Virus record (IMG/VR): IMGVR_UViG_3300050821_002517
Coordinates: 1 to 25,799 of that record
Length of the DNA: 25,799 bases
Direction: 5' to 3' (one strand)
Origin: a virus
Part shown: piece by piece, positions 403 through 21,808 of the stretch
How positions within the stretch are numbered: position 1 is the stretch's first letter
Layout of the letters: the number at the start of each line of letters is the position of its first letter
Made by a program: the position numbers and the translations under genes
The notes under the pieces: model-generated
Database searches by the model: none
Seen by the model: the letters and a program-made list of their open reading frames with translations, nothing else
What the model was told of the DNA's origin: nothing

Positions 403-1449
403 CTAGCACTTCTTCCAGTCGGTGAAATATAACTCTGCCAACAAGCCGGAGTGCGAGTTTGCCTTGATGATGTCGTGGGGATTCAAACCAGCAAGAACCA
501 TCTCGTTGATGTCCTTGGGTTTAACTGATGCGGGCCAGATACAGACTTCATATCCTTTGCGAATATATTGCTCCAACAAGTTACACACTTCCGCATTCCG
601 TGGTTCATTATCAAAGACCACCGTAATTTCTTGTTTTGACAAATACAGATCGTCTAGTTTACTGAATGCCGTTCCTACGACCGCAATACAGTTAGGAAGA
701 AAGAGACTGTCAATCGGTCCTTCCACCACAAGAATAGGTTGTGTTCTGTCCAATGACGAAAGACCAAAAATCAACGATCCTTCCACGTCTTCATCTTTCA
801 CGTTGATGTACCGTAATTGTTCTCCTCTCAACGCTCTAAGTGCCATGCCAGTCCAATCATGATCACATCCACCAACCTCATTGAACGATTCAAGCGGAAT
901 AGCCAATCGTGGTTCTTCTGATTTAGCCAGACTCTCGTATTGAGGAAACAGTTTAATGATATCTTTGGTGTGTTCAAGAAAAAACAACTTGCTGAACTGT
1001 TCACGGGGGATTTGTCGTTTCAAACAGTACTGAACCGCTTCATTGTCGTCTGGAAGCAGTGAAAGAGACGTGAGTCCAAACTCGTCTATAATAGGTTCTT
1101 TCTTCTTGAACACCGGAGCGTCCTGCTTCATGAACTGAGCGGCGTTCTTGTGTGCAACGGTTTTACCTCCACCATCCTCTGCGAACCTTTCGTAGACGTA
1201 TTGTTGGTACATTGCTGCATCAAGGTCTTTCAAGAAAGTTCCGAAATGACCCGCCCAACCGCAATTGTGACACTTCCCCCAGAGAGCACTTTTTTGAACG
1301 TAAAAATAGAATCGTTTTTTGTTTGATTTTTTCTTACTATCGCCGCAAAGTACACAACGGCATATCCACGTATTTCGCCCTTTCTCTTTGAAGAGTGGTA
1401 GACGTGGAGATATTAAACGAAGATACTTGACATCGATGAACAGGGACAT
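403..1449 (-). CDS. 61: DNA primase subunit, T4 gp61-like
   Basis: Replicative primase that lays RNA primers at the fork with the gp41-type helicase encoded at 17747-19126. The 348 residues are close to T4 gp61 (342). Visible are an N-terminal zinc-binding region (C32-x2-C35 in CRCVLCGDS and C60-x2-C63 in CHNCG), then PRLAIPL, and a Toprim core with VVEGPIDSLF and VVFDNEPRN; the last two are near-identical to gp61 (VLEGPIDSLF, WVLDNEPRH). The frame extends upstream to 1542, but ATG 1449 is preferred: it has GGAG 6 nt upstream and aligns with the gp61 N terminus, and the extra codons would run through the promoter and terminator-like hairpin. It has its own sigma70-like promoter and so appears to be expressed separately from the exported-protein genes upstream. 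Confidence 0.95.
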   Translation of the reverse strand: MSLFIDVKYLRLISPRLPLFKEKGRNTWICRCVLCGDSKKKSNKKRFYFYVQKSALWGKCHNCGWAGHFGTFLKDLDAAMYQQYVYERFAEDGGGKTVAHKNAAQFMKQDAPVFKKKEPIIDEFGLTSLSLLPDDNEAVQYCLKRQIPREQFSKLFFLEHTKDIIKLFPQYESLAKSEEPRLAIPLESFNEVGGCDHDWTGMALRALRGEQLRYINVKDEDVEGSLIFGLSSLDRTQPILVVEGPIDSLFLPNCIAVVGTAFSKLDDLYLSKQEITVVFDNEPRNAEVCNLLEQYIRKGYEVCIWPASVKPKDINEMVLAGLNPHDIIKANSHSGLLAELYFTDWKKC

Positions 1450-1471
1450 GGTTGCTCCAAGGGTATACTGA

Positions 1472-1500
1472 AGTATAGCCAGAGGAACTCCTGATGTCAA
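1472..1500 (-). promoter_or_regulatory. Sigma70-like early promoter for primase
   Basis: On the minus strand: -35 TTGACA (1495-1500), a 17-bp spacer, then -10 TATACT (1472-1477). TCAGTATA follows the -10 at once, making the dyad TATAC-TTCA-GTATA that also occurs at the uvsX promoter. The primase ATG is 22 nt beyond the -10. Confidence 0.85.
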
Positions 1501-1520
1501 GGGTGGGTTGGACCGTTTTA

Positions 1521-1559
1521 AAGCCCCTGCAATCGTCACCAAATCGATTACAGGGGCTT
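1521..1559 (-). terminator. Terminator-like hairpin after the ompA-like gene
   Basis: AAGCCCCTG (1521-1529) pairs with CAGGGGCTT (1551-1559), and AATCG (1531-1535) pairs with CGATT (1545-1549), with one mismatch between the two blocks. In the minus direction it follows the stop of the OmpA-like gene and precedes the primase promoter. The U tract is weak (CTTTAAAA), so a full intrinsic terminator is likely but not certain. Confidence 0.65.
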
Positions 1560-1594: not shown

Positions 1595-2560
1595 CTATTT
1601 TTCTTGCAGAATGATCACTCGGAACTCGTCTCGACGGTTTAAGTCTTGATTTGTCGATGAGACCAAGGCTCCCTTTCCAGAACTTGCGACATCGATACGA
1701 CTTTCGTCAATACCCTGTGCAACAAGGAAGGCTTTTGCTGCCTTGGCTCGTCTAAACCCAAGGGCAAGATTATACGTGTCTGATCCCTTCACATCCGTAT
1801 TGCCGACAATCAGTATTCGAACCGTGGGATGTGCCTGTAACACCGCAATCTTGTCCTTCAACACCGCCTGAGCGGAATCTGAAAGATCAGACTTGTCGAA
1901 TGCAAAGTATATCTTCTGATCGACTACGATTGGCGCAATACGAACAGGACGATCCACAAGAACGGAATCATGAACCTGTACCGTATCATGTACAGTCTTT
2001 TGTACAATCTTTGCTGGATGATCCACAACCACTGTTTTCACAACACGAGTGGGGTGACGATAAAAACTCAACCCTGCTCGAATGGTGGTAAATCGTTTCC
2101 AGCTATAATTGGCCAAGAAATCTTCCTGAGCGTCAACTCTCAACGCCGCAGCCGACCACAAATCCAGTTTTACACCAGCAAGCGCGTTGACGCCATAACT
2201 GTGAAGGAAGTTTGTCTCGGTACTGGCTCCGGCACCCACGCCCAAAAGAATGGACAGCGGACCTGCCTTGACTGGAGTATTGACCAATCGCCCGGACAAG
2301 ATACCAACATTCACGTCCTTCAATCCCGCAGGACGAGTCGCACGCATTTCTGCATCGTCAAACTCCAACGACCATCGGGGATCAAGGAATACTCCAACTC
2401 GTCCACCAATACCACGAGCAGTCAACAAGCTCAAGCTATGGTCAAACGATGCCGAAGAGACGAATGCTCCGAACTCCACGGTTCCTCTTTCTTGCGCCAT
2501 TACTGGTTTCACACACAGCAATAACGCCGCAATTCCTAATACAACGATCTTTCGAAACAT
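1595..2560 (-). CDS. OmpA-family outer-membrane protein
   Basis: 321 residues. Residues 1-22 form a classical Sec signal peptide ending VMA before QERG. Residues 25-170 alternate in beta fashion (repeated G-V/A-x patterns, GLSFY near 165) as expected of a small outer-membrane barrel. A linker rich in Val and HDTVQVHDSV follows, then an OmpA C-terminal peptidoglycan-binding domain at about 215-320: IYFAFDKSDLSDSA, GNTD (253-256), NLALGFRRAKA and NRRDEFRV. In OmpA domains the Asp and Arg of these motifs hold diaminopimelate. AAGGAG lies 6 nt before the ATG; the gene starts 9 nt after the ice-binding-like gene ends, so the two are probably co-transcribed. A complete OmpA protein is rare in phages; it may alter the infected cell surface. 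That role is inference. Confidence 0.9.
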   Translation of the reverse strand: MFRKIVVLGIAALLLCVKPVMAQERGTVEFGAFVSSASFDHSLSLLTARGIGGRVGVFLDPRWSLEFDDAEMRATRPAGLKDVNVGILSGRLVNTPVKAGPLSILLGVGAGASTETNFLHSYGVNALAGVKLDLWSAAALRVDAQEDFLANYSWKRFTTIRAGLSFYRHPTRVVKTVVVDHPAKIVQKTVHDTVQVHDSVLVDRPVRIAPIVVDQKIYFAFDKSDLSDSAQAVLKDKIAVLQAHPTVRILIVGNTDVKGSDTYNLALGFRRAKAAKAFLVAQGIDESRIDVASSGKGALVSSTNQDLNRRDEFRVIILQEK

Positions 2561-2569
2561 ATGTGCTCC

Positions 2570-3331
2570 TTATGGTAGAGTGATGACGTTATTGGTGCCC
2601 AATGAAACAGAACCGTTTCGTGCCAACGCACGTCCACGTAATGTCGCATTGTCTACCAAAGTAATACTTGTGAGAGAAACAACATTGCCCTGCCATGCTG
2701 ATGCAGTTCCAAGTGTGGCTGAACTGCCGACGACCCACCACACATTTTTTGCTTGTGCGCCATTGATCAACACGATATCTCCGGCTGTCGTCAGAGAGGT
2801 TCCTGCTTGAAAGACAAACGTGGCATTGGGATCACCACCACCATCTAATGTCAGTGTTCCAGACACACCAATACCGATTGCCGTACAGTACACTCCTGCT
2901 GGCTTGGTTGTTCCTCCAAGATTTCCTACAATCGCATTGGATGCAGAACAGGGAAGACCAAACAACTTATTGTATGTGATGGTCAAGTCGTTCTGTGCAG
3001 CAAGTGCCACTGCATCGGCCAGATGTTTCACTCCGGTAATCACACATGGAGGAAATCCTGTTACCGTACTACCGGGACTGATGGCAATACCGGCATTGAT
3101 CACACCGTTTGTAATACAGGTGAATGCCTGTCCTGCCATGATCCCATTGACTGCTGCACTTCCAAGAGAAATGGTCGGTGCAAGTGTGTCTGGATTCACT
3201 ATAACGGTATCCGGATTTGTTCCTGTCGAAGACACACCAGAAATACCGTGTACGTCACAAGCAAATGCCAGTGCCACAATGAAAATGGCAAACAATACAG
3301 AACGAACTCTTTGGTAAAAAATCTTTGTCAT
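2570..3331 (-). CDS. DUF3494 (ice-binding-like) exported protein
   Basis: 253 residues. The N terminus is an export signal (MTKIFYQRV, then a hydrophobic run to ALAFAC at about 25); the Cys suggests a lipoprotein, but the lipobox is poor because Phe precedes the -1 Ala. From about residue 53 to the end it follows the DUF3494 ice-binding pattern: AGQAFTCITNGVINAG, ISPGSTVTGFPPC, HLADAVALAAQNDLTITYN, NLGGTTKPAGVYC, GTLTLDGGGDPNATFVFQ, INGAQAKNVWWVVGSSATLG and GRALARNGSVSL. The family forms a discontinuous beta solenoid that binds ice or acts as an adhesin on bacteria. AAGGAG precedes the ATG. Transcription probably enters from 3507 upstream and continues into the OmpA-like gene. I know of no established role for this domain in a phage. 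Confidence 0.9.
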   Translation of the reverse strand: MTKIFYQRVRSVLFAIFIVALAFACDVHGISGVSSTGTNPDTVIVNPDTLAPTISLGSAAVNGIMAGQAFTCITNGVINAGIAISPGSTVTGFPPCVITGVKHLADAVALAAQNDLTITYNKLFGLPCSASNAIVGNLGGTTKPAGVYCTAIGIGVSGTLTLDGGGDPNATFVFQAGTSLTTAGDIVLINGAQAKNVWWVVGSSATLGTASAWQGNVVSLTSITLVDNATLRGRALARNGSVSLGTNNVITLP

Positions 3332-3632: not shown

Positions 3633-4181
3633 TTAGAGGAGTTTACCAACCTCAACTCTAATAACGGCAGGGTCCATCACAGGTTTGTTCGGATGGGTGC
3701 CAATAGGATCGACTTTACGTCCTCGTGGCCAAGCTTCATTAGAATGGCCCGTAATCCTCCACAAATCGTTTTTAGACCACTGATGGAAGGTAAAGATGGC
3801 TTCGATGTCTTCCACCAACGATGCCTGCTGGAGAGGCGTTACAACCTCAGTATTGTTGGCACTGATAGCCAACCCATAGAAGAAGCTGTTGGGATATTTG
3901 TAGGTGAACAACGAGCTACTTGGACGACAAACGCCTGCATGATACGCCGCCTGTTCCATAGTGGGAGTAATCTGCGCTATGGTACCGTCCTTGTCATACA
4001 GACGATTATAGGAAACCGCACAGGTGGGATCGGAAAACCATTCCAACCCAGACTCGTCACTGCTGGAATCGTCAAAATGCAACATGACGCCTCCCGGTTG
4101 CACAATCCGATGGTCCAAACATTGCTTGCTTTGGACATTCTTTTTGACAGGAAGTAAACTGCTCAAAGGAACTATATTCAT
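3633..4181 (-). CDS. N-acetylmuramoyl-L-alanine amidase (endolysin)
   Basis: 182 residues forming a single Amidase_2/PGRP-like zinc amidase domain, which cuts the MurNAc-L-Ala bond of peptidoglycan at lysis. Visible landmarks: H35 in VMLHFDDS (first zinc ligand), SYNRLYDKDGTIAQI (57-71), QAAYHAG (77-83), FYGLAISAN, and GHSNEAWPRGRKVDPIG (145-161), giving H146 and D158 as the other ligands with K156 nearby, the usual H-x(n)-H-x-K-x-D layout. No signal peptide or separate wall-binding domain is seen, so it probably needs a holin. Its ATG overlaps the TAA of the membrane gene upstream (TAATG), a translational coupling common in lysis cassettes. Confidence 0.9.
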   Translation of the reverse strand: MNIVPLSSLLPVKKNVQSKQCLDHRIVQPGGVMLHFDDSSSDESGLEWFSDPTCAVSYNRLYDKDGTIAQITPTMEQAAYHAGVCRPSSSLFTYKYPNSFFYGLAISANNTEVVTPLQQASLVEDIEAIFTFHQWSKNDLWRITGHSNEAWPRGRKVDPIGTHPNKPVMDPAVIRVEVGKLL

Positions 4182-6102: not shown

Positions 6103-7062
6103 TTAGAACGGTCCCAAAGTAGTAGTTGTAGTCGTGGTCGGGGCCAAAGTCGTCGGTGCTACGGTTGTTGTTGGAGCGACAGTCGTAGTCGTCGTTGGTG
6201 CTACCGTTGTAGTAGTTGGAGCCAACGTTGTTGGGGCTGCGGTTGTGGTCGGAGCCTTGGTTGTTGTTGGCGCAATAGTTGTCGTCGGTGCTACGGTTGT
6301 CGGAGCCAACGTGGTGGTTGGAGCAACAGTTGTAGTGGTCGGTGCTACGGTTGTGGTCGGAGCAGCCGTTGTCGGTGCTACGGTTGTGGTCGGAGCAGCC
6401 GTTGTCGGAGCAGCCGTTGTCGGAGCAGCCGTTGTCGGTGCTAGGGTCGTAGTTGGTGCCGCCGTTGTGGTTGTGGTCGGTGCCGGATTGACCGTCAAGA
6501 CCGTTGGGCACGCATTGACTGCTGGTGCCGTGCTGTACGGAAGGGTCAAGACGCACTGATAGACGTTTCCTGTCAAACCTGTCGCGTCTGAAATCACCAA
6601 TGAAGCTGTGGTAGCTCCACTATAGACACCGCCGTTTGTGACGTTGCTGTATGATGTTCCACCATTCGTAGACAACTGCCACTGATAGGAAATGACGTAC
6701 AATCCTGTCGGTGTCGGTCCAATCAACGGAGTCGTGGTTGCAGTAAGTGTCAAAGTAACACCGCCCGGAAGCTGGACAACGCTTGGAGTGGTCGGACAAG
6801 TGAGAACGAAGATTGTGGCATCTGGGAACAACGTTTCTGTCAACAGATTCATGGTCGGTGGAACACTCATGCACACCAACGTCTCATAGGTGACACGCGG
6901 ACTATTTCTGAGTGCGTTTCTCCATACCCAACCCGGAGATACCACACCCGGAGTGTTATCTGCTGATGCCTGATTGACACCATAGATGTTTCCAGAAACG
7001 TGCTTTCCGATCATTCCGGGATCGTTATCTCCCGGTTTCACGACTCTACTCCAACCTGACAT
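6103..7062 (-). CDS. Ig-like domain protein with mucin-like Thr/Pro tail
   Basis: 319 residues in three parts. Residues 1-85 are a unique N terminus (MSGWSRVVKPGDNDPGMIG..., PGWVWRNALRNSPRVTYE). Residues 90-192 are an Ig-like fold of the type common in phage surface proteins: YQWQLSTNGGTSYSNV, YSGATTASLVISDA and GNVYQCVLT with the strand-F Tyr and Cys. Residues 194-319 are a nearly pure TTTVAP/TTAAP/TTLAP repeat with no other secondary structure. AGGAG lies 7 nt before the ATG and a late-type GATAAATA box is at 7128-7135. Likely a decoration protein or adhesin on head or tail; phage Ig domains can bind glycans or mucus. That role is inference. Confidence 0.85.
   Translation of the reverse strand: MSGWSRVVKPGDNDPGMIGKHVSGNIYGVNQASADNTPGVVSPGWVWRNALRNSPRVTYETLVCMSVPPTMNLLTETLFPDATIFVLTCPTTPSVVQLPGGVTLTLTATTTPLIGPTPTGLYVISYQWQLSTNGGTSYSNVTNGGVYSGATTASLVISDATGLTGNVYQCVLTLPYSTAPAVNACPTVLTVNPAPTTTTTAAPTTTLAPTTAAPTTAAPTTAAPTTTVAPTTAAPTTTVAPTTTTVAPTTTLAPTTVAPTTTIAPTTTKAPTTTAAPTTLAPTTTTVAPTTTTTVAPTTTVAPTTLAPTTTTTTTLGPF
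6106..6483 (-). repeat. Thr/Pro-coding degenerate tandem repeat
   Basis: About 378 bp coding for residues 194-319 of the Ig-like protein. Units of 12-21 bp code (A/V)APTTT with third-position variation; a 15-bp unit coding PTTAA is repeated three times near 6402-6446. A shorter relative codes for the tail of the next gene (about 5887-5955). The complement gives a long but spurious open frame on the plus strand. Confidence 0.85.
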
Positions 7063-7321: not shown

Positions 7322-9111
7322 TTTTTAAAATAACCTTGTGTCTTGCGATTTTTCTTGGTGGTGCGAACCTTGGCCTTGACGTTCGCCACGTTCGGACTTG
7401 TGTCGAGAACAGAACCAGCTTCTTCCTTATAGCTACCAAGCCTCTTTCCTTTATCTTCTAATGACGGCGAATCTTCATGAGATTTCTTTTTGTTGAAACA
7501 TGATGCAGAACAGTAGTGATGACCACCTTCTTTATGCATTTCGGTCTTTGATCCAGATACTCCACAACCCCAACAAAACTTTCCCGGATAGAGTTTCCAT
7601 TCAGACAACTCAACTTCTTCCTTTACTTCCTTGCTGGCCTTCAAATCCTTGCGGAACAATGCACGAGCAGCGGATGGTCCCTTTTTGGAATCCACATGCG
7701 CCTGATATTCCGCCTTTGCCGCTGCCATCAAACGCGCCTTGTTGGCGTTTCGGGCAGCAATGTCAGCAGCCACACGACTCTTGATTTCATCAGAAACAGG
7801 CAAATGCTTCTGGGAGTTGGCAGAGATAACGCCTTCATCCAGCGTATCCACGTACGCCAAGAAGTCCTTAGTCGTATCCAAATCCAGTTCCGTCACGTCC
7901 TTCACACCGAAATGCTCCAGTGCGTCAGTGAAACGTTGTGCGTAATCCATATGTTCTCCTAGTCCGTGATGTCTGCGACGAAGCAGTTCTTTTTTGGCTG
8001 CTGACGCAAGTTGTTTGTCGTGAGTCGTGATATGACCGCCCGCCTTCTTCTTTCTCGTTGGAGCAACGGCGAATGTTCGAAGTGTGTTGAGCGATGCTTT
8101 GCGAAGATTGATCTCTTCTGTCAGATCGATGGATTCCTTTACATTGACGGAAGTGCGATGCTCGTTTTCGTCAGCACCCTTATGGTGTTCGACCTTGTGA
8201 GCCGGAACCTTCAACGACTCATATTTGCCTACGTCTACGACATAGAATGGAGAGCCGTGAGGGTCTCCCTTGTCATGACGAACGACCTTGCCAGATACCA
8301 TATGACCATTGTGCGGAACACGGACCTTTGCACCATCGGCGTGTTTTCGAGGAATGTTCTCTCGAACGGACTCTATCTGAAATCCGCACTTGGCACACGG
8401 ACCTCCCGCATGAGTTTCTGCACATGATCCGTCCAATCCCTTGATGTTGGCGTAATCCTTGTGCGTGTTCTTCTTGTGGTCGATTTCTTCCTTGTGCGTC
8501 TTGGCCACTGCCTTCAACTTTTTCTTACGAAGCTTGAGGGTGTTCTTGTCCGTTGGGCCGTATTCCGGAATGTCCCAATCTTCTTCCGTTTGTTCCCCCA
8601 TATGCTTGTGCGCTTCAATCGCCTGCAGCTGCTTGACCGCACTGATATGAGACTTGTGATAACCAAGAATCTTACTACCACTCCTGTTCGTCACAACAAA
8701 CCCCGAACCGCTTCTTCGAATGTGTTCAATCAGTTTCTGCACGTCTGCCATGTCCGTTTCCTCTGAGGCTGTTGGAGGACGGTTTTGCACGTCTCCAATA
8801 CTACTTGCACCTGTATCCGTATGCTTATCCCCCTTCGGGAAAGCTTTCTTGTATTTCTTCTTGACCGATTCTCCCAATGGATTACGACGAATCGCTCCTG
8901 TCCTATTCATTACGAGCCTAAGCAATGCTGGATTATCTAATACAACTTCAAGAAAATCATTGATGAACTGATAAAACACTTTTCGCTCTTGTATGGGCAA
9001 ATACATATTTTGCCGAACATGTCCAAAAGCCTTTTTCAACCACGGTAAATCTGCTATTGGCATCAATCCTAATCGAACAAGAACATCTATTTTAGATGAG
9101 AAGTCTTTCAT
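7318..9111 (-). CDS. Large modular basic protein, probable head-associated
   Basis: 597 residues of linked short modules with basic, low-complexity joins. Recognisable parts: a helical N terminus (1-75); GFVVTNRSGSKILGYHKS then AVKQLQAIEAHK (about 137-169), a small alpha/beta module I recall from phage assembly proteins; C230/C239/C242, a possible zinc knuckle; an SH3-like stretch GAKVRVPHNGHMVSGKVV (260-277); INLRKASLNTLRTFAV (334-349); YAQRFTDALEHFGVKDVTEL (390-409), another recurring phage module; and a C-terminal zinc ribbon with C513, C516, C534 and C538. Several (L/I)xE sites (LGE, LTE, LDE, LSE) fall at module edges, as expected for gp21-type protease processing in a prohead. AAGGA precedes ATG 9111, and the start lies inside the end of the endonuclease gene upstream. 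Function inferred. Confidence 0.7.
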   Translation of the reverse strand: MKDFSSKIDVLVRLGLMPIADLPWLKKAFGHVRQNMYLPIQERKVFYQFINDFLEVVLDNPALLRLVMNRTGAIRRNPLGESVKKKYKKAFPKGDKHTDTGASSIGDVQNRPPTASEETDMADVQKLIEHIRRSGSGFVVTNRSGSKILGYHKSHISAVKQLQAIEAHKHMGEQTEEDWDIPEYGPTDKNTLKLRKKKLKAVAKTHKEEIDHKKNTHKDYANIKGLDGSCAETHAGGPCAKCGFQIESVRENIPRKHADGAKVRVPHNGHMVSGKVVRHDKGDPHGSPFYVVDVGKYESLKVPAHKVEHHKGADENEHRTSVNVKESIDLTEEINLRKASLNTLRTFAVAPTRKKKAGGHITTHDKQLASAAKKELLRRRHHGLGEHMDYAQRFTDALEHFGVKDVTELDLDTTKDFLAYVDTLDEGVISANSQKHLPVSDEIKSRVAADIAARNANKARLMAAAKAEYQAHVDSKKGPSAARALFRKDLKASKEVKEEVELSEWKLYPGKFCWGCGVSGSKTEMHKEGGHHYCSASCFNKKKSHEDSPSLEDKGKRLGSYKEEAGSVLDTSPNVANVKAKVRTTKKNRKTQGYFKK

Positions 9112-9739
9112 TTGTTTTCCTTTTTGGCTTCCGCATCTTTTTCTTATCTTCTTCTGTTCTAGGAATTCCCTTATTCCATGTTTTTCTTCCCTTAAGAGCT
9201 ATAGACAAATGTTCCTTATGAGCATCCGTCAATGAAACTCCCTTGTTCCAAGTAGAAACTCCTTTATGAGATTCACTAAGTTTTCGTTTTGTCTCTTCTG
9301 TGTGATGTTTACCAGTATTCGCCTTTGCTATCTTCCGCTTATGCTCTTCACTCTTCGGCCTTTTCATACGATTTCTCGTCTCTTCACTCTTCGGCTTTCG
9401 CATACGTTTTTTAGTTTCTTCTGTATGCGGCCCTTGTCGAAAGAATGGTCCTTCATAAACCGCTTGATTCAACCAATCACTCTTCGATACGGCCTTAATT
9501 CGCTTCAATACCTTCTGTTCCCAAGCATGAGCCGCATATACATCTTCAAATACTTTTCGTACTTCAACCTGAAACGAGTCATTTCCATACGCTTTTCGAA
9601 GTGCATCCACCTTATCGGATGATCCGAAATACTGAACCCACAAATCCTGCTCCGGCTCGACCTTTGGGGCAAGCCGAACCCCGTAATACTTCTTTCCGGT
9701 CGGTGTATGGTATAGATAATATGTGTATGGTTTTATCAT
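9092..9739 (-). CDS. GIY-YIG homing endonuclease with NUMOD3 repeats
   Basis: 215 residues. The N-terminal nuclease domain opens YTYYLYHTPTGKKYYGVR, the Seg-type variant of the GIY...YIG motif, followed by LWVQYFGSSDKV and AAHAWEQKVLKRIKAV with the catalytic Glu in WEQKVL, and WLNQAVYEGPFF. The C-terminal half is a string of NUMOD3-type DNA-binding repeats (HTEETKKRMRKPKSEET, HTEETKRKLSESHKG, TWNKGVSLTDAHKEHLS, TWNKGIPRTEEDKKKM). It lies 14 nt after the nucleotidyltransferase gene and overlaps the start of the 597-residue gene by 20 nt, a compact insertion in the same direction. No clear ribosome site. A selfish free-standing endonuclease spreading by cutting sister genomes. Confidence 0.93.
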   Translation of the reverse strand: MIKPYTYYLYHTPTGKKYYGVRLAPKVEPEQDLWVQYFGSSDKVDALRKAYGNDSFQVEVRKVFEDVYAAHAWEQKVLKRIKAVSKSDWLNQAVYEGPFFRQGPHTEETKKRMRKPKSEETRNRMKRPKSEEHKRKIAKANTGKHHTEETKRKLSESHKGVSTWNKGVSLTDAHKEHLSIALKGRKTWNKGIPRTEEDKKKMRKPKRKTNERLLI

Positions 9740-11136: not shown

Positions 11137-11874
11137 TTACTTCGTCCACCTTATCGGACTGCCATCCTTTAAAAAACGTCTTCCAGAAACATACCCCGCT
11201 GGTATGATTATATCATACGCAACAAGTTTAGATGTGTGATTATTTAAATCACTTATCCACATATGCTTTGATTTCTTTTTGTGACCTTTTCCATACGTAT
11301 TGCCGAGCATACGTTTTCGTTGATCATCTTTCCATTTATCTGTATGTAAAGGCATAATTTGAAGCGCTCTCTTTTCTTTAATTTGCTTACGAGCCTTCTC
11401 TGTATGTGTTTTTCCTTTTCTTGCGCCTATTTGAACTCCTATCAATCCTTTATTCCATGGAATAAACCACGGTCTAGGACCACGCAATTTTTGTTTTGTT
11501 GATTCGCTTTTTGGTTTGCGCATTTTTTTCTTTGTAGCTTCTGTATGCGGTCCTTGCCAATGATATGGACCAGCTATATTAGCTTGATTCAACCAGTCGT
11601 CGCGTTCCACTGCTTTAATACGACGTAACACATTTTGTTCCCATATTAATGCGGCTTCCTTCGTTTCAAATATCCTTCGGACTTCAGCTATAAATGAATC
11701 CTTTCCATATCTTTCCAAAAGTTCATCGACCTTTTTTGATGAACCAAAATAATAAATCCACAAATCCTTTTCTGGTTCACATTTATTAATCCATCGCACA
11801 CCATAATATTTCTTTTTTGTCGGAATGTGAAAAAGATAATATGTGTATGGACACGCGGGTTTTTTATTTGACAT
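11137..11874 (-). CDS. GIY-YIG homing endonuclease
   Basis: 245 residues, same subfamily as the gene at 9092. The nuclease domain opens YTYYLFHIPTKKKYYGVRWI, with LWIYYFGSSKKVDELLERYG, ALIWEQNVLRRIKAV (catalytic Glu) and WLNQANIAGPYHWQGPHTEATKKK. NUMOD3-like basic repeats follow (STKQKLRGP, FIPWNKGLIG, HTEKARKQIKEK). The end carries a second DNA-binding type, HMWISDLNNHTSKLV...IPAGYVSGRRF, seen at the C termini of many phage HNH and GIY-YIG enzymes. The start overlaps the coiled-coil gene upstream by 11 nt, with GAGG 10 nt before the ATG, and the stop abuts the next ATG with no gap. No late box or structured leader is seen, unlike the plus-strand relatives. Confidence 0.92.
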   Translation of the reverse strand: MSNKKPACPYTYYLFHIPTKKKYYGVRWINKCEPEKDLWIYYFGSSKKVDELLERYGKDSFIAEVRRIFETKEAALIWEQNVLRRIKAVERDDWLNQANIAGPYHWQGPHTEATKKKMRKPKSESTKQKLRGPRPWFIPWNKGLIGVQIGARKGKTHTEKARKQIKEKRALQIMPLHTDKWKDDQRKRMLGNTYGKGHKKKSKHMWISDLNNHTSKLVAYDIIIPAGYVSGRRFLKDGSPIRWTK

Positions 11875-12723: not shown

Positions 12724-12834
12724 TTAACACATTCCTAAATGTGACATGATCAACAAGAGAAGAAAAATAATGATGATCGTACCACAGCCACAACCAGAAT
12801 CTTCTCCACGACGAGCAGGAGCGTAATATGCCAT
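12724..12834 (-). CDS. 36-residue single-pass membrane peptide
   Basis: An ATG overlapping the NAMPT-like gene's TAA (TAATG) opens a frame coding MAYYAPARRGEDSGCGCG followed by the hydrophobic run TIIIIFLLLLIMSHLGMC and stop. Layout: a short polar N terminus with a CGCG pair, then one transmembrane helix to the end. It is the last frame of the operon before the terminator. The stop/start overlap, the tight position and the clean membrane helix argue that it is translated, but no family is recognised. Tiny membrane peptides in phages can be toxins, exclusion factors or enzyme anchors; none can be assigned. Confidence 0.5.
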   Translation of the reverse strand: MAYYAPARRGEDSGCGCGTIIIIFLLLLIMSHLGMC

Positions 12835-14303
12835 TAGCTTCTAGCTCTCGCTCGCACTTCCGGCCATGTGCTTCTTCCACCGTCCAACCAACTTCCATCT
12901 CTCCAAATCGGCTTCAACTCCGAGACATGTAGTTGTGACGGTGTGGCTTCATTGATTAGCGTCAGCTTTCCGTTCTTGTCACGAATCACCGCCAGATACC
13001 CCTTGGCTGAGTTCTTCGTGCCGTCGTCAGTCAACGGCTTCTTGAAGATCGGCTTGCTCACGCCGTTAATGATGACGTTGGTGGCCTTCATGGCAAAGTT
13101 GTGGGTGTCTCGTGTCACGTACTGATAGGTGAAGCTTCCCACCCCGAAAACGATGTTGCACGACGCGAAGCCCTTTGTTTCCAGTCCATATAGAATCGCG
13201 TCTGCCCGATCATAGCTGATGGAGTCACCATAGATACATCCAATATGACTATCCAGCACGTCAAAGTGTTCTGCGGTCTCTGTGCCACCAAACAACTCCC
13301 ACAGCAACTGAACGACTCCCTTGTTGGCAGGACTACCCGGATAGGCGTCTGGATCACCACAGATAATCTTGACCGGATCGCCAGAGTCAGGACGGATGAC
13401 CAACTTACCGTCACGAGCCATGATACGATCCTTCAACTGTGGCAGAATGTTGGTCAGGACGTTCCACAAGTCCCATGTATCAGAGACCACGGACAAGATG
13501 CCTGTTGGATAGAGGTCCAGCAGTCGGTTAAACGTCTCCAGTTCGTCATCCTGTCCACCAGCGCACATGACAGAGTGCTCAGTGGCGGCAACTGATCCGG
13601 CCAAGAGATATCCCTTCGGAACACCATAATGCTTCTTGATGTAACTGATGACCGGAACCGTGTCCGTACCACAGAACTGCACCAAATGTCCTGACGCACT
13701 CATCTTGGCCGCTTCCAGTCCCGGCATACCACGGAAGCTAAAGTCGTGTCCCTGCCAGTCTACAAACTCCTTGGGGGAACCTGTCTTGACGGCATAGCGC
13801 TCCAAGAGACCACGCAGCATTCGAGCAGACGTGGCAGACGTGCAAGGCATCCAGATAGAAGCCGACAACAGCGTTTCAAAGTAGTTGGCCAGCCATGAAA
13901 ACTTTTCTCCATGGGTGCTTCGAACCGTGAACATCGGCACTCTGAGCGGCACGTTGGTTCCTTCCGGCAACGCGCAGAACTCCAATGGCGTGAAGCCCAG
14001 AGCGTGCCAGTCCCGGATGTGATCTGTACCAACACCATTATTTGGTCCCAGATATTCATTCACCAAGTCAGCATACTCTTGACAAACTTCATCCACGTCC
14101 TTTGCAAAAAATTCCTCCAACCCTTCCATCAAATACTTGTCAATCATCGGCTGAAGGCCAAGGAATGTTACCGCATCACAGCCCGGAATACGAGTACCAC
14201 GGGGAGTGAAGTTTGAATACACTTCTTCGGTATGATTGGGATATTGTTGGCGATGCCCAATTTTATAAGCATCTACTAATGTAATGGAATCAAGTGCATT
14301 CAT
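12834..14303 (-). CDS. Nicotinamide phosphoribosyltransferase-like enzyme (NAMPT/NadV)
   Basis: 489 residues, close to the usual length (human NAMPT 491). NAMPT joins nicotinamide to PRPP to give NMN; the related phage enzyme Namat joins nicotinamide to ADP-ribose pyrophosphate and gives NAD+ directly. Motifs in order: DAYKIGHRQQYP (11-22), GHDFSFRG (185-192), CGTDTVPV (211-218; D214 matches the nicotinamide-site Asp), TEHSVM with H243 at the catalytic His position, VVSDTWDLWNV, VIRPDSGDP (302-310; phosphoribosyl-pyrophosphate site), YGDSIS, and VFGVGSFTYQYVTRDTHNFAMK. All key residues look intact. The ATG overlaps the stop of the PRPP-synthetase-like gene (ATGA), with GAGAGGA upstream, so the two enzymes are co-translated. 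From sequence alone I cannot say whether the sugar donor is PRPP or ADPR-PP. Confidence 0.93.
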   Translation of the reverse strand: MNALDSITLVDAYKIGHRQQYPNHTEEVYSNFTPRGTRIPGCDAVTFLGLQPMIDKYLMEGLEEFFAKDVDEVCQEYADLVNEYLGPNNGVGTDHIRDWHALGFTPLEFCALPEGTNVPLRVPMFTVRSTHGEKFSWLANYFETLLSASIWMPCTSATSARMLRGLLERYAVKTGSPKEFVDWQGHDFSFRGMPGLEAAKMSASGHLVQFCGTDTVPVISYIKKHYGVPKGYLLAGSVAATEHSVMCAGGQDDELETFNRLLDLYPTGILSVVSDTWDLWNVLTNILPQLKDRIMARDGKLVIRPDSGDPVKIICGDPDAYPGSPANKGVVQLLWELFGGTETAEHFDVLDSHIGCIYGDSISYDRADAILYGLETKGFASCNIVFGVGSFTYQYVTRDTHNFAMKATNVIINGVSKPIFKKPLTDDGTKNSAKGYLAVIRDKNGKLTLINEATPSQLHVSELKPIWRDGSWLDGGRSTWPEVRARARS

Positions 14304-15208
14304 AAAGTTCCTCTCAAAAGGGATTCACAGATTTTGATTTCAACAAGATTACTCTGCCCGAAATCACGAATGATAGAATCTGTTGTAAAAATGGTGTCGA
14401 AATATTTGTACAAGCCAACAACACCATTGGAAAACAATCCATGCGTCACTAACAAATCCAAATTACATTTCACACGATAGTTCTTAATATGATCTGCAAG
14501 GCCAACAAACGTTCCTCCACCGTCACAGATGTCGTCTACAATAAGAAACCGTGGATGATAGTCTCCTCTCTTTACGGCACTCTTTGGCCAAGGTTCAATA
14601 GGTTCAATACCAAACCCATCAAGTTCTCCTGTCGTCACATTGCGCTTCTTCCAACCATGGATCAGTGGAACACCAAGCGCAACAGCTACCGCAGATGCTC
14701 TCTTCTCGGCTCCAGCGTCAGGTGAAATCACTCCGTCATACTGAGCGTTTTTGAGATTTATTCCAGAGGACCACAACGAAATCAACTTTGCCAACGGAAT
14801 GTTGCGGCAACGATCAATCAGTGCTGGCATGACTTCAGAATGACAATCAACTACGGTGACTGATGGAAAGTTACGATGGTTGATTTCCTTGGCGATGGAC
14901 TTGGCCGTGAAGAGGAAATCACCTGACGTATTCAGACGATCCTGTCGAGCGCCAAGAGCAAATGGAAAAATGAGATGAGGTGTAGTGTATCCCCGATCTT
15001 GAAGAGCATCCACATAAAACATAGCAGCAAAAAAAGAATCCATCGTTTTTGGACGTAAAAGCATACTATGTGTTTCTTCTTCATGTGGCAAAGACCATGG
15101 TGTATCCGGTTTAATCAACGGTTCCCCATTAGGATATTTGTCAACATCAACAGAAATGATTGCACTACTTCCACGTCCAAGAAGGATTTCAGTGTTATAC
15201 AATGTCAT
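14300..15208 (-). CDS. Ribose-phosphate pyrophosphokinase-like enzyme (Prs or Adps)
   Basis: 302 residues from ATG 15208; upstream in-frame ATGs were rejected because AGGAGG lies 6 nt before this one and the family aligns from here. Motifs: FPFALGARQDRL (81-92, ATP loop like PYFGYARQDR of Prs), VVDCHSEVMPAL (119-130, metal-binding His like DLHA), VISPDAGAEKRA (160-171) and VDDICDGGGTF (224-234, the ribose-phosphate PPi loop like VDDIxDTGGT). Prs transfers pyrophosphate from ATP to ribose-5-phosphate. A divergent phage form, Adps, does the same to ADP-ribose, and its product is used by a NAMPT-like partner (the NARP1 pathway). Coupling to the NAMPT-like gene by ATGA fits either scheme. Confidence 0.9.
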   Translation of the reverse strand: MTLYNTEILLGRGSSAIISVDVDKYPNGEPLIKPDTPWSLPHEEETHSMLLRPKTMDSFFAAMFYVDALQDRGYTTPHLIFPFALGARQDRLNTSGDFLFTAKSIAKEINHRNFPSVTVVDCHSEVMPALIDRCRNIPLAKLISLWSSGINLKNAQYDGVISPDAGAEKRASAVAVALGVPLIHGWKKRNVTTGELDGFGIEPIEPWPKSAVKRGDYHPRFLIVDDICDGGGTFVGLADHIKNYRVKCNLDLLVTHGLFSNGVVGLYKYFDTIFTTDSIIRDFGQSNLVEIKICESLLRGTL

Positions 15209-15459
15209 GAAGTGCCTCCTATGAATTCGTATCCGTGAGTTTGATTCTTCAGGCTTCTTTGCTTCACATTCCGCATCAACTCTGCCAGCTTGATTTCCCA
15301 TAGTCTTGCCAGTTCCACGGTTTCTGCCTTGGAGATCATGCGAGCCAAGTTCTTCATGCGATATTCGTCCTGATCGATCATGGTTGTGTTATTGAACTCG
15401 CTCGTGTCGCGTTCAAAGTCATGATCGGTCGGTTCGTTGAAGATGTCTCGTTCAAGCAT
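15205..15459 (-). CDS. Small hypothetical protein of the NAD operon
   Basis: 84 residues from ATG 15459 (a later ATG at 15381 would give 58). The N terminus is acidic (LERDIFNEPTDHDFERDTSEF); the rest is helical and mixed-charge (MKNLARMISKAETVELARLWEIKLAELMRNVKQRS). Neither ATG has a Shine-Dalgarno. The frame remains open further upstream, but that part runs through a 14-bp hairpin and into the HTH gene, so it is unlikely to be coding. The stop overlaps the PRPP-synthetase-like ATG (ATGA), which supports the reading. Function unknown. Confidence 0.6.
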   Translation of the reverse strand: MLERDIFNEPTDHDFERDTSEFNNTTMIDQDEYRMKNLARMISKAETVELARLWEIKLAELMRNVKQRSLKNQTHGYEFIGGTS

Positions 15460-15817: not shown

Positions 15818-15904
15818 TGACTGTTATACCGCTAAAAATCGTCCCGATAGCCGAAATCCATACCCTCTAGGGTGTAACAGTCAATGGAGTGTAGGCGTCG
15901 GGAC
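15818..15904 (+). ncRNA. Pseudoknotted structured leader RNA, copy 1
   Basis: Predicted fold. P1: TGACTGTTATA (15818-15828) with TGTAACAGTCA (15873-15883), 11 bp including one G-U. P2: GTCCCGA (15841-15847) with TCGGGAC (15898-15904), continued by GCC (15850-15852) with GGC (15894-15896) and TCCAT (15857-15861) with ATGGA (15884-15888). Internal hairpin: CCC-TCTA-GGG with flanking A-T (15862-15873). P1's 3' strand lies inside the P2 loop, making a pseudoknot. The ribosome site AGGAGG (15913-15918) lies 9 nt downstream. A second copy at 20977-21068 supports the fold by covariation. No known family is recognised. Confidence 0.8.
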
Positions 15905-15922
15905 TTTATGTTAGGAGGCATC

Positions 15923-16510
15923 ATGTTTCAACCATACACCTACTATATTTACCACGTTCCTACAGGAAAAAAGTATTACGGATGTGAGCATAAGAAGACC
16001 GCTCATTCTTCGAACTTATGGACCAAATATTTTTCGTCGTCTAAGATAGTTCATAGATTACTCGAACAATATGGACCGGATTCATTTCAAACACAAGTTC
16101 GAAAAATCTTCTCTTCTGCAAAAGAAGCTCTATCGTACGAAGATCGATTTTTGCGTAAAGTACACGCCGTAGAAAAAGATGATTGGCTGAACCAAGCGTA
16201 TGTGTGCGGCCCGTCCCATTGCAACTGGTCCGGAAGAACTCATTCCCAAAAAGTCAAAGACGATGCTAAACGAAGAAAAACCGATTGGTGGAAGTCTCTA
16301 TCCGAAATAGAACGACAACATATATCCAATTCTTGGTGCGGGTCTGGAAATTCGAGATTTGGAAAACCTTTTACAGAAAAATGGAAGCAAGAGCAGAGTG
16401 AGCGAACAAGAGCCGCTTGGACCGATGATAGAAAGGTGACTAGGAGTTGTCAGATGAAAGAATTTTGGAAACTTCGTAAACTACGCGGAGTTGTTGGACG
16501 ACTTGGATAA
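15923..16510 (+). CDS. GIY-YIG homing endonuclease, cassette 1
   Basis: 195 residues from ATG 15923, which has AGGAGG 4 nt upstream; earlier in-frame ATGs at 15884 and 15908 lie in the leader and lack one. The nuclease domain opens YTYYIYHVPTGKKYYGCEHKK. Residues after YYG differ from the other three copies: CEH replaces VR or SR, so an Arg conserved in those copies is absent. LWTKYFSSSKIVHRLLEQYG, ALSYEDRFLRKVHAV (catalytic Glu) and WLNQAYVCGPSH follow. The C terminus is basic and aromatic (RFGKPFTEKWKQEQSERTRAAW), NUMOD3-like but short. It is one of only two plus-strand genes; its end overlaps the 3' end of the convergent 94-residue gene by 30 nt. Likely expressed late. Confidence 0.9.
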   Translation: MFQPYTYYIYHVPTGKKYYGCEHKKTAHSSNLWTKYFSSSKIVHRLLEQYGPDSFQTQVRKIFSSAKEALSYEDRFLRKVHAVEKDDWLNQAYVCGPSHCNWSGRTHSQKVKDDAKRRKTDWWKSLSEIERQHISNSWCGSGNSRFGKPFTEKWKQEQSERTRAAWTDDRKVTRSCQMKEFWKLRKLRGVVGRLG

Positions 16511-17015: not shown

Positions 17016-17705
17016 CTACGAGAGTTGAAATATAGGGAACACTTGGGGCATCCATTTATACGCCTTTCTCAGCAAGGTCTTCCGGAGGGTATCCCAGTTT
17101 GTCCCCTTGAACGCCTTGGAGTAGTTCTTGTAGCTCTTCACCTTATGTAACGAAGTAATGTTCTGGAACGCCTCCCGAATAGACAACTCCGGGTAGTACT
17201 GTCGTATTTCTTGACAGATGTCGTGACTGTATGCGTCAACTTCCGTAATATCCGAAAGGTACTTGATTTCATCAGCCCGGACCTTGGACATGCGATCTGA
17301 ATGGTACACTTTGGTCTTTTCAGGGTCGATCTTCGGTCTCTTTCGGCACTGCTGCTGGTGAATCTTTTCGTGCTGAATCGTCTCAGAAACCAGAAAAAAC
17401 AAACGATTCATCCGTATCTTGGACAGGCGAAGACTTTTCTGTTCAGGGTGCAGATGAATCGTCAAGGTAATCGGCTTGTGTCTGCCGTCAAAGTGATATA
17501 CGCCGGAGACATAGAACCCGTTTGGTTGGATCGGATTGGCATACGTGGCAGATGCGGAGTCCCTGATTACTCTTGCACGAACACCCATGGAACGAAAATC
17601 CTTGTTGAGAATTTTCCGAAGAGTCCTATTAGGAATATCTTTCCCCACGTACTGGGTAAGCTCAGAGGTTTCCAGCTTTCGGTTTATGCGTTCATGAGTA
17701 AACAT
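17016..17705 (-). CDS. Putative zinc metallopeptidase (HExxH)
   Basis: 229 residues. A classical zincin motif HEKIH is at 112-116 in SETIQHEKIHQQQ, preceded by a hydrophobic helix (MNRLFFLVSETI). A further acidic motif, SDITEVDAYSHDI with E155, lies about 39 residues downstream and would be the third zinc ligand of a gluzincin. The N-terminal part has KITLTIHLHPE-type beta strands as in SprT/M48-like folds. No signal peptide, so cytoplasmic or virion-associated. GGAGG lies 8 nt before ATG 17705, and CATAAATA is at 17732-17739, so expression is probably late. The substrate is unknown. Confidence 0.65.
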   Translation of the reverse strand: MFTHERINRKLETSELTQYVGKDIPNRTLRKILNKDFRSMGVRARVIRDSASATYANPIQPNGFYVSGVYHFDGRHKPITLTIHLHPEQKSLRLSKIRMNRLFFLVSETIQHEKIHQQQCRKRPKIDPEKTKVYHSDRMSKVRADEIKYLSDITEVDAYSHDICQEIRQYYPELSIREAFQNITSLHKVKSYKNYSKAFKGTNWDTLRKTLLRKAYKWMPQVFPIFQLS

Positions 17706-21088: not shown

Positions 21089-21808
21089 ATGAACCAATAC
21101 GGCCAACAAACATATACCTACTATCTATACCACATTCCTACGGGAAAGAAATACTATGGATCACGTATAGCTAATAAAGTGTCTCCTGAACAGGATTTGT
21201 GGAACGAATATTTTAGTTCGTCCGAATTAGTTGAAGCTCTAATCAAAGAATACGGTGAGTCTTCCTTTCAAGCCAATGTTCAAAAAACATTCGATACCAT
21301 TGAAGAAGCTCGCTACTGGGAAGATCGTATTCTCCACAAACTAAAAGCACCGGAAAAGGATGAATGGTTGAATCAAGTATATAATAATGGACCATTTTAT
21401 AATACAGCATCGGGAAATCTTCATCACAACTATGGAACAACATGGTCTGAAAAAAGACGAAAGGAAAGGAGTTTAGCAAATAGTGGCTCAGGAAATCCTA
21501 TGTTCGGTAAACCTAGTGCCATGAAAGGAAAACATCATGATCCAGATACTAAAACCATTATCAGTAACAAAAAGAAAATATGGTGGAATGAACGCCGTAA
21601 AAATAATCAAAATTTTGGCAAAGGTTGTCAGCATCCCAGATATGGTAGACCAGTTTCTGAATCACAAAGAAAAAAGAAATATAGACCAATTGAAACGCCT
21701 TCTGGTATATTTGAAAGCGTAAAAGCAGCAGCTTTAGCGTTTAGTTGTTCTAGTGCTTTGATAGTAAAACGTTGTAAAATTGGTATTGATTTTAAGTATG
21801 CAGATTAG
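21089..21808 (+). CDS. GIY-YIG homing endonuclease, cassette 2
   Basis: 239 residues. The nuclease domain opens YTYYLYHIPTGKKYYGSRIA, with LWNEYFSSSELVEALIKEYG, ARYWEDRILHKLKAP (catalytic Glu) and WLNQVYNNGPFY. The middle has NUMOD3-like NSGSGNPMFGKPSAMKGKHH and RYGRPVSESQRKKK. The end is a NUMOD1-like helix-turn-helix, TPSGIFESVKAAALAFSCSS then ALIVKRCKIGIDFKY, the same module that survives in the relic at 7149. The ribosome site is weak (TAGAG). The gene converges on the polymerase gene and overlaps its last 17 nt. Confidence 0.93.
   Translation: MNQYGQQTYTYYLYHIPTGKKYYGSRIANKVSPEQDLWNEYFSSSELVEALIKEYGESSFQANVQKTFDTIEEARYWEDRILHKLKAPEKDEWLNQVYNNGPFYNTASGNLHHNYGTTWSEKRRKERSLANSGSGNPMFGKPSAMKGKHHDPDTKTIISNKKKIWWNERRKNNQNFGKGCQHPRYGRPVSESQRKKKYRPIETPSGIFESVKAAALAFSCSSALIVKRCKIGIDFKYAD

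Follow-up and report, generated by a model that had tools for sequence, protein, structure and literature searches.

What does a gene for a DUF3494 (Ice_binding) protein do in a T4-like phage? To date, viral DUF3494 genes have been read singly, as antifreeze genes that aid host survival. PF11999 genes on three Arctic vOTUs and a single antifreeze gene from viruses of the Southern Ocean have been interpreted as cryoprotective (PMC11515562; PMC8407431), and DUF3494 models from Hyperionvirus are present in BFVD. Among the papers searched, none combined DUF3494 with OmpA, or DUF3494 with phage. Phage DUF3494 is already on record; what is new is a captured lipoprotein/OmpA unit that lacks the stalk, together with the recurrence of such a pair. 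Here, the DUF3494 gene belongs to a conserved two-gene unit of bacteria; the phage has retained both genes, along with the lipid anchor and the head that binds, but no stalk.

The gene lies in an IMG/VR virus record of 25,799 bases, which is called the window below. The features of the locus are:

403..1542, minus strand: DNA primase of the T4 gp61 type, following the pair (phrog_47, E 4e-67, and relatives)
1595..2560, minus strand: OmpA-family protein gene, 321 aa (PF00691, E 1.1e-15)
2561..2569, minus strand: 9-bp intergenic gap from the DUF3494 gene to the OmpA gene, with the OmpA Shine-Dalgarno sequence AAGGAG in and beside it
2570..3331, minus strand: DUF3494 (Ice_binding) lipoprotein gene, 253 aa (Pfam, AlphaFold2 model and structure match)
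3257..3331, minus strand: lipoprotein signal peptide MTKIFYQRVRSVLFAIFIVALAFA followed by Cys25 and then DVHGIS (from the sequence)
3633..4181, minus strand: N-acetylmuramoyl-L-alanine amidase (Amidase_2), probably an endolysin, preceding the pair (PF01510, E 5e-12)

The T4-like assignment rests on the replication set, which comprises PolB (gp43), UvsX, a DnaB-type helicase (gp41), the gp61 primase, clamp loader A (gp62) and RegA; the genes of the 25.8-kb fragment are for replication, lysis and metabolism, and virion genes such as T4-type gp23 and gp17 would fall outside it. PolB shares 43% identity with its cyanophage counterpart, and the nearest phage relatives have primases that are 47–51% identical. 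Within the reach of their contigs, these relatives keep the gene order o11864, o9754, o7318, a PT-rich gene, o5487, primase and MazG. The stretch from o5487 to the primase is a variable slot in 46 loci, mostly 0.9–3 kb long. The window has 3.9 kb there, with the amidase and the DUF3494/OmpA pair; neither member of the pair was found at any of 80 related phage loci. Small putative membrane ORFs and the amidase precede the pair in one tight transcription direction. The placement between lysis and replication genes made in the earlier note, which was based on the sequence of the window, is borne out by the amidase on one side and by the primase, PolB, UvsX, helicase, clamp loader A and RegA. The primase itself probably starts at an ATG near 1449, with a promoter-like site ahead of it at 1500–1472; promoter-like sites are fewer in the window than in shuffles, and an 11/12 site precedes the primase. 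No late-promoter motif TATAAATA was present upstream of the pair, and a search for RNA elements gave no Rfam match.

Elsewhere in the window, a nicotinamide phosphoribosyltransferase gene lies beside a PRPP-synthetase-like gene (12834–15301) and the two resemble a phage NAD salvage pair, the former sharing ~56% identity with proteins of Rhodococcus phages. A homing-endonuclease-like family with the start TYYLYHIPTGKKYYG is present four times, at 9092–9739, 11137–11874, 15884–16510 and 21089–21808; the copy tested matched phrog_314, and two copies are on the strand opposite to nearly all other genes. The product of 6103–7062 combines an Ig-like segment with a long tail of Thr/Pro/Ala repeats, and a related gene is at the same place in L207. 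Finally, an ORF at 17016–17705 contains a zinc-peptidase-motif-like QHEKIHQQQ stretch and has no Pfam match.

The DUF3494 ORF occupies exactly 2570–3331 and begins with ATG. Its product is divided into a signal with lipobox (residues 1–25), a linker (about 26–50) and a β-solenoid domain (about 51–253). The domain is complete, as had been claimed: PF11999 aligns over model positions 1–207 of 208 (E 1.7e-45; 155.7 bits with a cut-off of 28.7). The AlphaFold2 model, which has a mean pLDDT of 88 and exceeds 90 over most of the domain, shows the discontinuous β-solenoid with a long helix (107–124) that defines the DUF3494 fold. It superposes on known DUF3494 structures with Z of 29.8–33.9 and an rmsd of 1.0 to 7bwy, and the closest solved structure is 6eio (E 4e-37). 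The repeated strand motif described previously fared less well, as GTLTLDGGGDPNATFVFQ is present once and the remaining coils are degenerate.

The export signal, also noted previously, is specifically of the lipoprotein type, with K3, a hydrophobic core and a LAFA-Cys25 lipobox, in which Phe at position −2 is unusual. The residue directly after the lipid-bearing Cys25 is Asp. In E. coli, Asp at this position favors the inner membrane. This makes surface placement in a Gemmatimonadota-type cell less sure, and both inner and outer membrane are possible. Four cysteines are shared with the Gemmatimonadota clade and, judging from sequence, would fit an exported, disulfide-bonded protein.

Nine bp downstream, on the same strand, is the OmpA gene, and both genes have strong Shine-Dalgarno sequences. 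The OmpA protein consists of a signal, a predicted eight-stranded outer-membrane barrel (28–168), a linker and a peptidoglycan-binding OmpA domain (218–309), which scores above the PF00691 cut-off. AlphaFold2 places eight strands in 28–168 with pLDDT mostly 80–94; Foldseek matches of the model are to OmpA, Pal and OprF, and the barrel part matches the OmpA barrel. In addition, D256 and R271 are invariant among relatives, and we take them to be the binding Asp and Arg of the peptidoglycan domain. Anti-phage defense was considered and rejected, PADLOC having given only a generic OmpA/MotB match to ZorB. The finding is a two-gene unit of lipoprotein and OmpA rather than a lone DUF3494 gene. The earlier note was right about the DUF3494 gene; it did not notice OmpA as the partner, the origin in Gemmatimonadota or the lack of an Ig stalk.

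Where did the pair come from? It was taken up from Gemmatimonadota bacteria by the T4-like phage, and the copy is shortened. In bacteria, the top three relatives of the DUF3494 protein come from Gemmatimonadota (59–64% identity; next best, 52%), and over the domain itself identity to Gemmatimonadota copies reaches 79% (L183). The phage OmpA can be aligned almost end to end with the partner genes of L183, L081 and L190, at 47–51% identity. In L081 (RYN_362) the OmpA gene, kin of the phage OmpA, is directly downstream of the DUF3494 gene. PF11999 exceeds the cut-off in 41 of 395 Gemmatimonadota genomes, and among fetched loci with room to judge, 13 of 30 from this phylum have OmpA as the next gene downstream in the same orientation, against 5/66 loci in other phyla and 4/69 viral loci. 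Within the window's own clade the arrangement occurs in 11 of 16 loci and is absent from the other 5. Further support came from a tree of 203 DUF3494 domains, 72 of them viral. Here, the window nests among 12 Gemmatimonadota rows, which together with it form a clade (SH-aLRT 95), and lies within a wider clade of 17 (support 96), apart from all 72 viral rows.

The N-terminus carries the same signature. Among 229 DUF3494 ORFs, the C-D/E-V-H motif is confined to Gemmatimonadota and the window, as is the CDVHGIS motif; the Cys and CDVH are kept in the relatives whose N-terminus is readable (L081, L182, L183, L190, L191 and L199), and in L178. The host proteins (331–858 aa) have a lipoprotein signal, often CDVH, then one to seven Ig-like repeats and then the DUF3494 head. 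The phage protein, at 253 aa, keeps the LAFACDVHGIS start and the head and has no Ig-like stalk repeats. GC3 is 0.37 for the DUF3494 gene and 0.45 for the OmpA gene, within the range of 0.35–0.59 for other phage genes, and is 0.77–0.90 in bacterial pairs. With protein identity high, a GC3 of the phage type suggests that the genes have long resided in the phage under constraint. Host contamination, which the earlier note had named as a ground for dismissal, or a chimeric contig is ruled out by the phage-like GC3, the tight operon spacing and the conserved T4-like backbone around the pair. The pair also suggests a Gemmatimonadota host for the phage.

The pairing is not restricted to the window. 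A search of phage genomes had been recommended, and profile scans of IMG/VR yielded at least 132 DUF3494 stretches on viral contigs. Profiles were needed, as IMG/VR scans with the single DUF3494, OmpA and primase proteins gave no relatives. No match was obtained by tblastn of the DUF3494 protein and EfcIBP against 50,697 phage records, in PHROG families for the DUF3494 protein, or among viruses for a Gemmatimonadota-type OmpA profile. Terminase is present in 14 of 50 DUF3494-bearing viral records, so some of these records may represent fragments or misclassified contigs. Searched for in eight viral records, Gp23 gave no match in any of them, nor in the controls. In terminase-bearing phages (L010, L036, L038, L040, L064 and L070), DUF3494 is found inside longer proteins without signal peptides, in or near virion modules and mostly in virus-only clades, which is probably a separate, virion-decorating use of the domain.

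A second, unrelated phage group (L008, 218 kb; L062; L063; L069; L071; L287) encodes a DUF3494 lipoprotein and then OmpA. Its genes include phage exonuclease, DNA ligase and RNA ligase, and the pair sits among exonuclease, ligase and phosphatase-like genes. The lipoprotein keeps InlB-type repeats as a stalk and has CKKDDF after the signal, which fits the consensus C-X-K-(D/E)2-X described as the optimal surface-export signal for a Bacteroidota species (PMC5080379). A 299-kb relative has a broken DUF3494 copy, with the N-terminal part only (L292:3827–4312). In L049, a putative phage contig of 137 kb, OmpA comes first and is followed by the DUF3494 lipoprotein. As the second-group proteins sit in other clades than that of the window, the pairing arose more than once in phages; the exact window-type pair is on one phage contig only. 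The lipoprotein/OmpA pair thus seems to serve phages in remodeling the surface of the cell during infection. A broader proposal, put forward tentatively and perhaps somewhat doubtful, is that it is a general surface-changing module captured independently from their own hosts by at least two lineages (possibly three, with L049) and trimmed to a stalk-less form in one.

Whether the protein binds ice was addressed on the modeled B-face, as had been advised. The flat Ser/Thr/Ala/Gly face is present, with T, S, A or G at 23 of 27 outward positions and no charged residue. The same score without a charged residue is, however, reached by 45 of 97 other bacterial/archaeal and 43 of 72 viral sequences, and B-face composition was therefore discarded as proof of ice binding; the cold habitat hinted at in the earlier note is likewise only a possibility. 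At the level of single residues, S203 and T206 are equivalent to S153 and T156 of AnpIBP, where Tyr substitutions cut activity to 17% (PMC7277481), and the B-face binding residues are kept. The window protein also has Ser in column 2 and Thr in column 4, a pattern reported for sequences from frozen sediment, rock and the subsurface (PMC12337378). Two of the closest named genomes are palsa MAGs. Palsa is permafrost peat. From the model, ice binding by the window protein is possible.

The model that we favor, at a little short of an even chance, is that the pair is a host-derived surface module which displays the DUF3494 head on the infected cell, with its binding role kept. The phage would infect a cell, probably one of the Gemmatimonadota, and make the DUF3494 lipoprotein, whose lipid anchor would keep the β-solenoid head near the envelope. 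The OmpA-type protein would span the outer membrane and grip peptidoglycan. Acting as partners, the two may put the head on the infected cell, and host-type binding to ice, particles or neighboring cells could then continue during phage replication, with a presumed benefit through surface binding. The lipid anchor and OmpA indicate the envelope of the infected cell, which is most likely where the pair is displayed, and not the virion. Of the coat on infected cells suggested in the earlier note, the envelope role fits the lipoprotein signal and OmpA partner, and ice binding is a possibility. The missing stalk counts against surface display for binding, since the head would be left at the membrane, poorly placed to reach ice or surfaces. 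The Asp after Cys25, the 5 of 16 clade loci that lack OmpA pairing and the restriction of this exact pair to a single phage contig also weigh against the model.

The membrane-close position of the head makes receptor masking a serious, if unlikely, rival to attachment to surfaces or ice. Here, the lipoprotein, the phage OmpA or both would mask or replace a putative host receptor, perhaps the host DUF3494/OmpA pair itself, so that rival phages could not adsorb. The lipoprotein signal with its outer-membrane partner and the recurrence of the pair in unrelated phages are consistent with this, and a membrane-close, stalk-less head is better suited to masking than to outward reach. By analogy, the pair may be likened to the T5 lipoprotein Llp, an inactivator of FhuA; T5 provides a precedent for a phage lipoprotein (PMC9586334). 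Simple masking would have no need of the B-face ligand residues, which are nevertheless kept. Cryoprotection alone, in which the protein would bind ice and give infected cells or newly released virions protection against freezing, is quite improbable: the fold and B-face fit known ice-binding proteins, and the palsa MAGs and the column 2 and column 4 residues agree with it, but the B-face make-up is common across the family and soluble ice binding needs no OmpA partner.

The position of the pair, directly downstream of the amidase and small putative membrane ORFs and read in one direction with them, would suit a lysis accessory, in which the lipoprotein and the OmpA with its hold on peptidoglycan would contribute to disrupting or stabilizing the envelope late in infection. 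This is very unlikely, as the host pair is flanked by cytochrome c-type and MacB/FtsX genes with no lysis genes nearby, that of the second phage group lies in a different gene setting, and DUF3494 has no known lytic role. Still less probable is transient, functionless cargo picked up with host DNA. The variable slot, the absence from all related loci and the degraded copy in the 299-kb contig would be expected of cargo; two intact ORFs with strong ribosome-binding sites and phage-like GC3, a conserved head and recurrence of the pairing in other phages would not. The smallest chance, a very slim one, is left to a DUF3494 protein that decorates the particle, a role that the earlier note had allowed. 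Most viral DUF3494 proteins kept from the IMG/VR scans lack a signal peptide, and the loci examined adjoin terminase, portal or tail-like genes. The window protein, in contrast, has a lipoprotein signal, lies between amidase and primase genes and belongs to the Gemmatimonadota clade, apart from the virion-type clades. Overall, the pair directs attention to the infected-cell envelope, and lets ice binding, adhesion and superinfection exclusion be set against each other.

How does the pair compare with known systems? The Arctic vOTU, Southern Ocean and Hyperionvirus cases resemble it in that a virus contig carries a DUF3494 or antifreeze gene; in the available portions of the first two reports a lipoprotein/OmpA unit is not mentioned, and the window copy is of the Gemmatimonadota type. 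EfcIBP (6EIO) and AnpIBP (7BWX) share the fold (Z about 34 at best), the flat B-face and the S203/T206 equivalents. They differ in having measured ice activity, whereas the window protein, ~40% identical to them, is a candidate ice binder that has a lipid anchor and an OmpA neighbor besides. With T5 Llp the likeness is that of a phage-encoded lipoprotein at the cell envelope, and is one of analogy, not sequence similarity. The group of L008, L062, L063, L071 and L287 has the same order of DUF3494 lipoprotein and then OmpA in a phage genome, but with an InlB-type stalk, a Bacteroidota-type export signal and another DUF3494 clade, and is an independent acquisition. The closest counterpart is the Gemmatimonadota pair itself (L081, L183 and L190), which matches in gene order, strand, CDVH lipoprotein start, DUF3494 head, and OmpA barrel with peptidoglycan domain; the host form has Ig-like repeats between lipid anchor and head, and the phage OmpA has a shorter linker.
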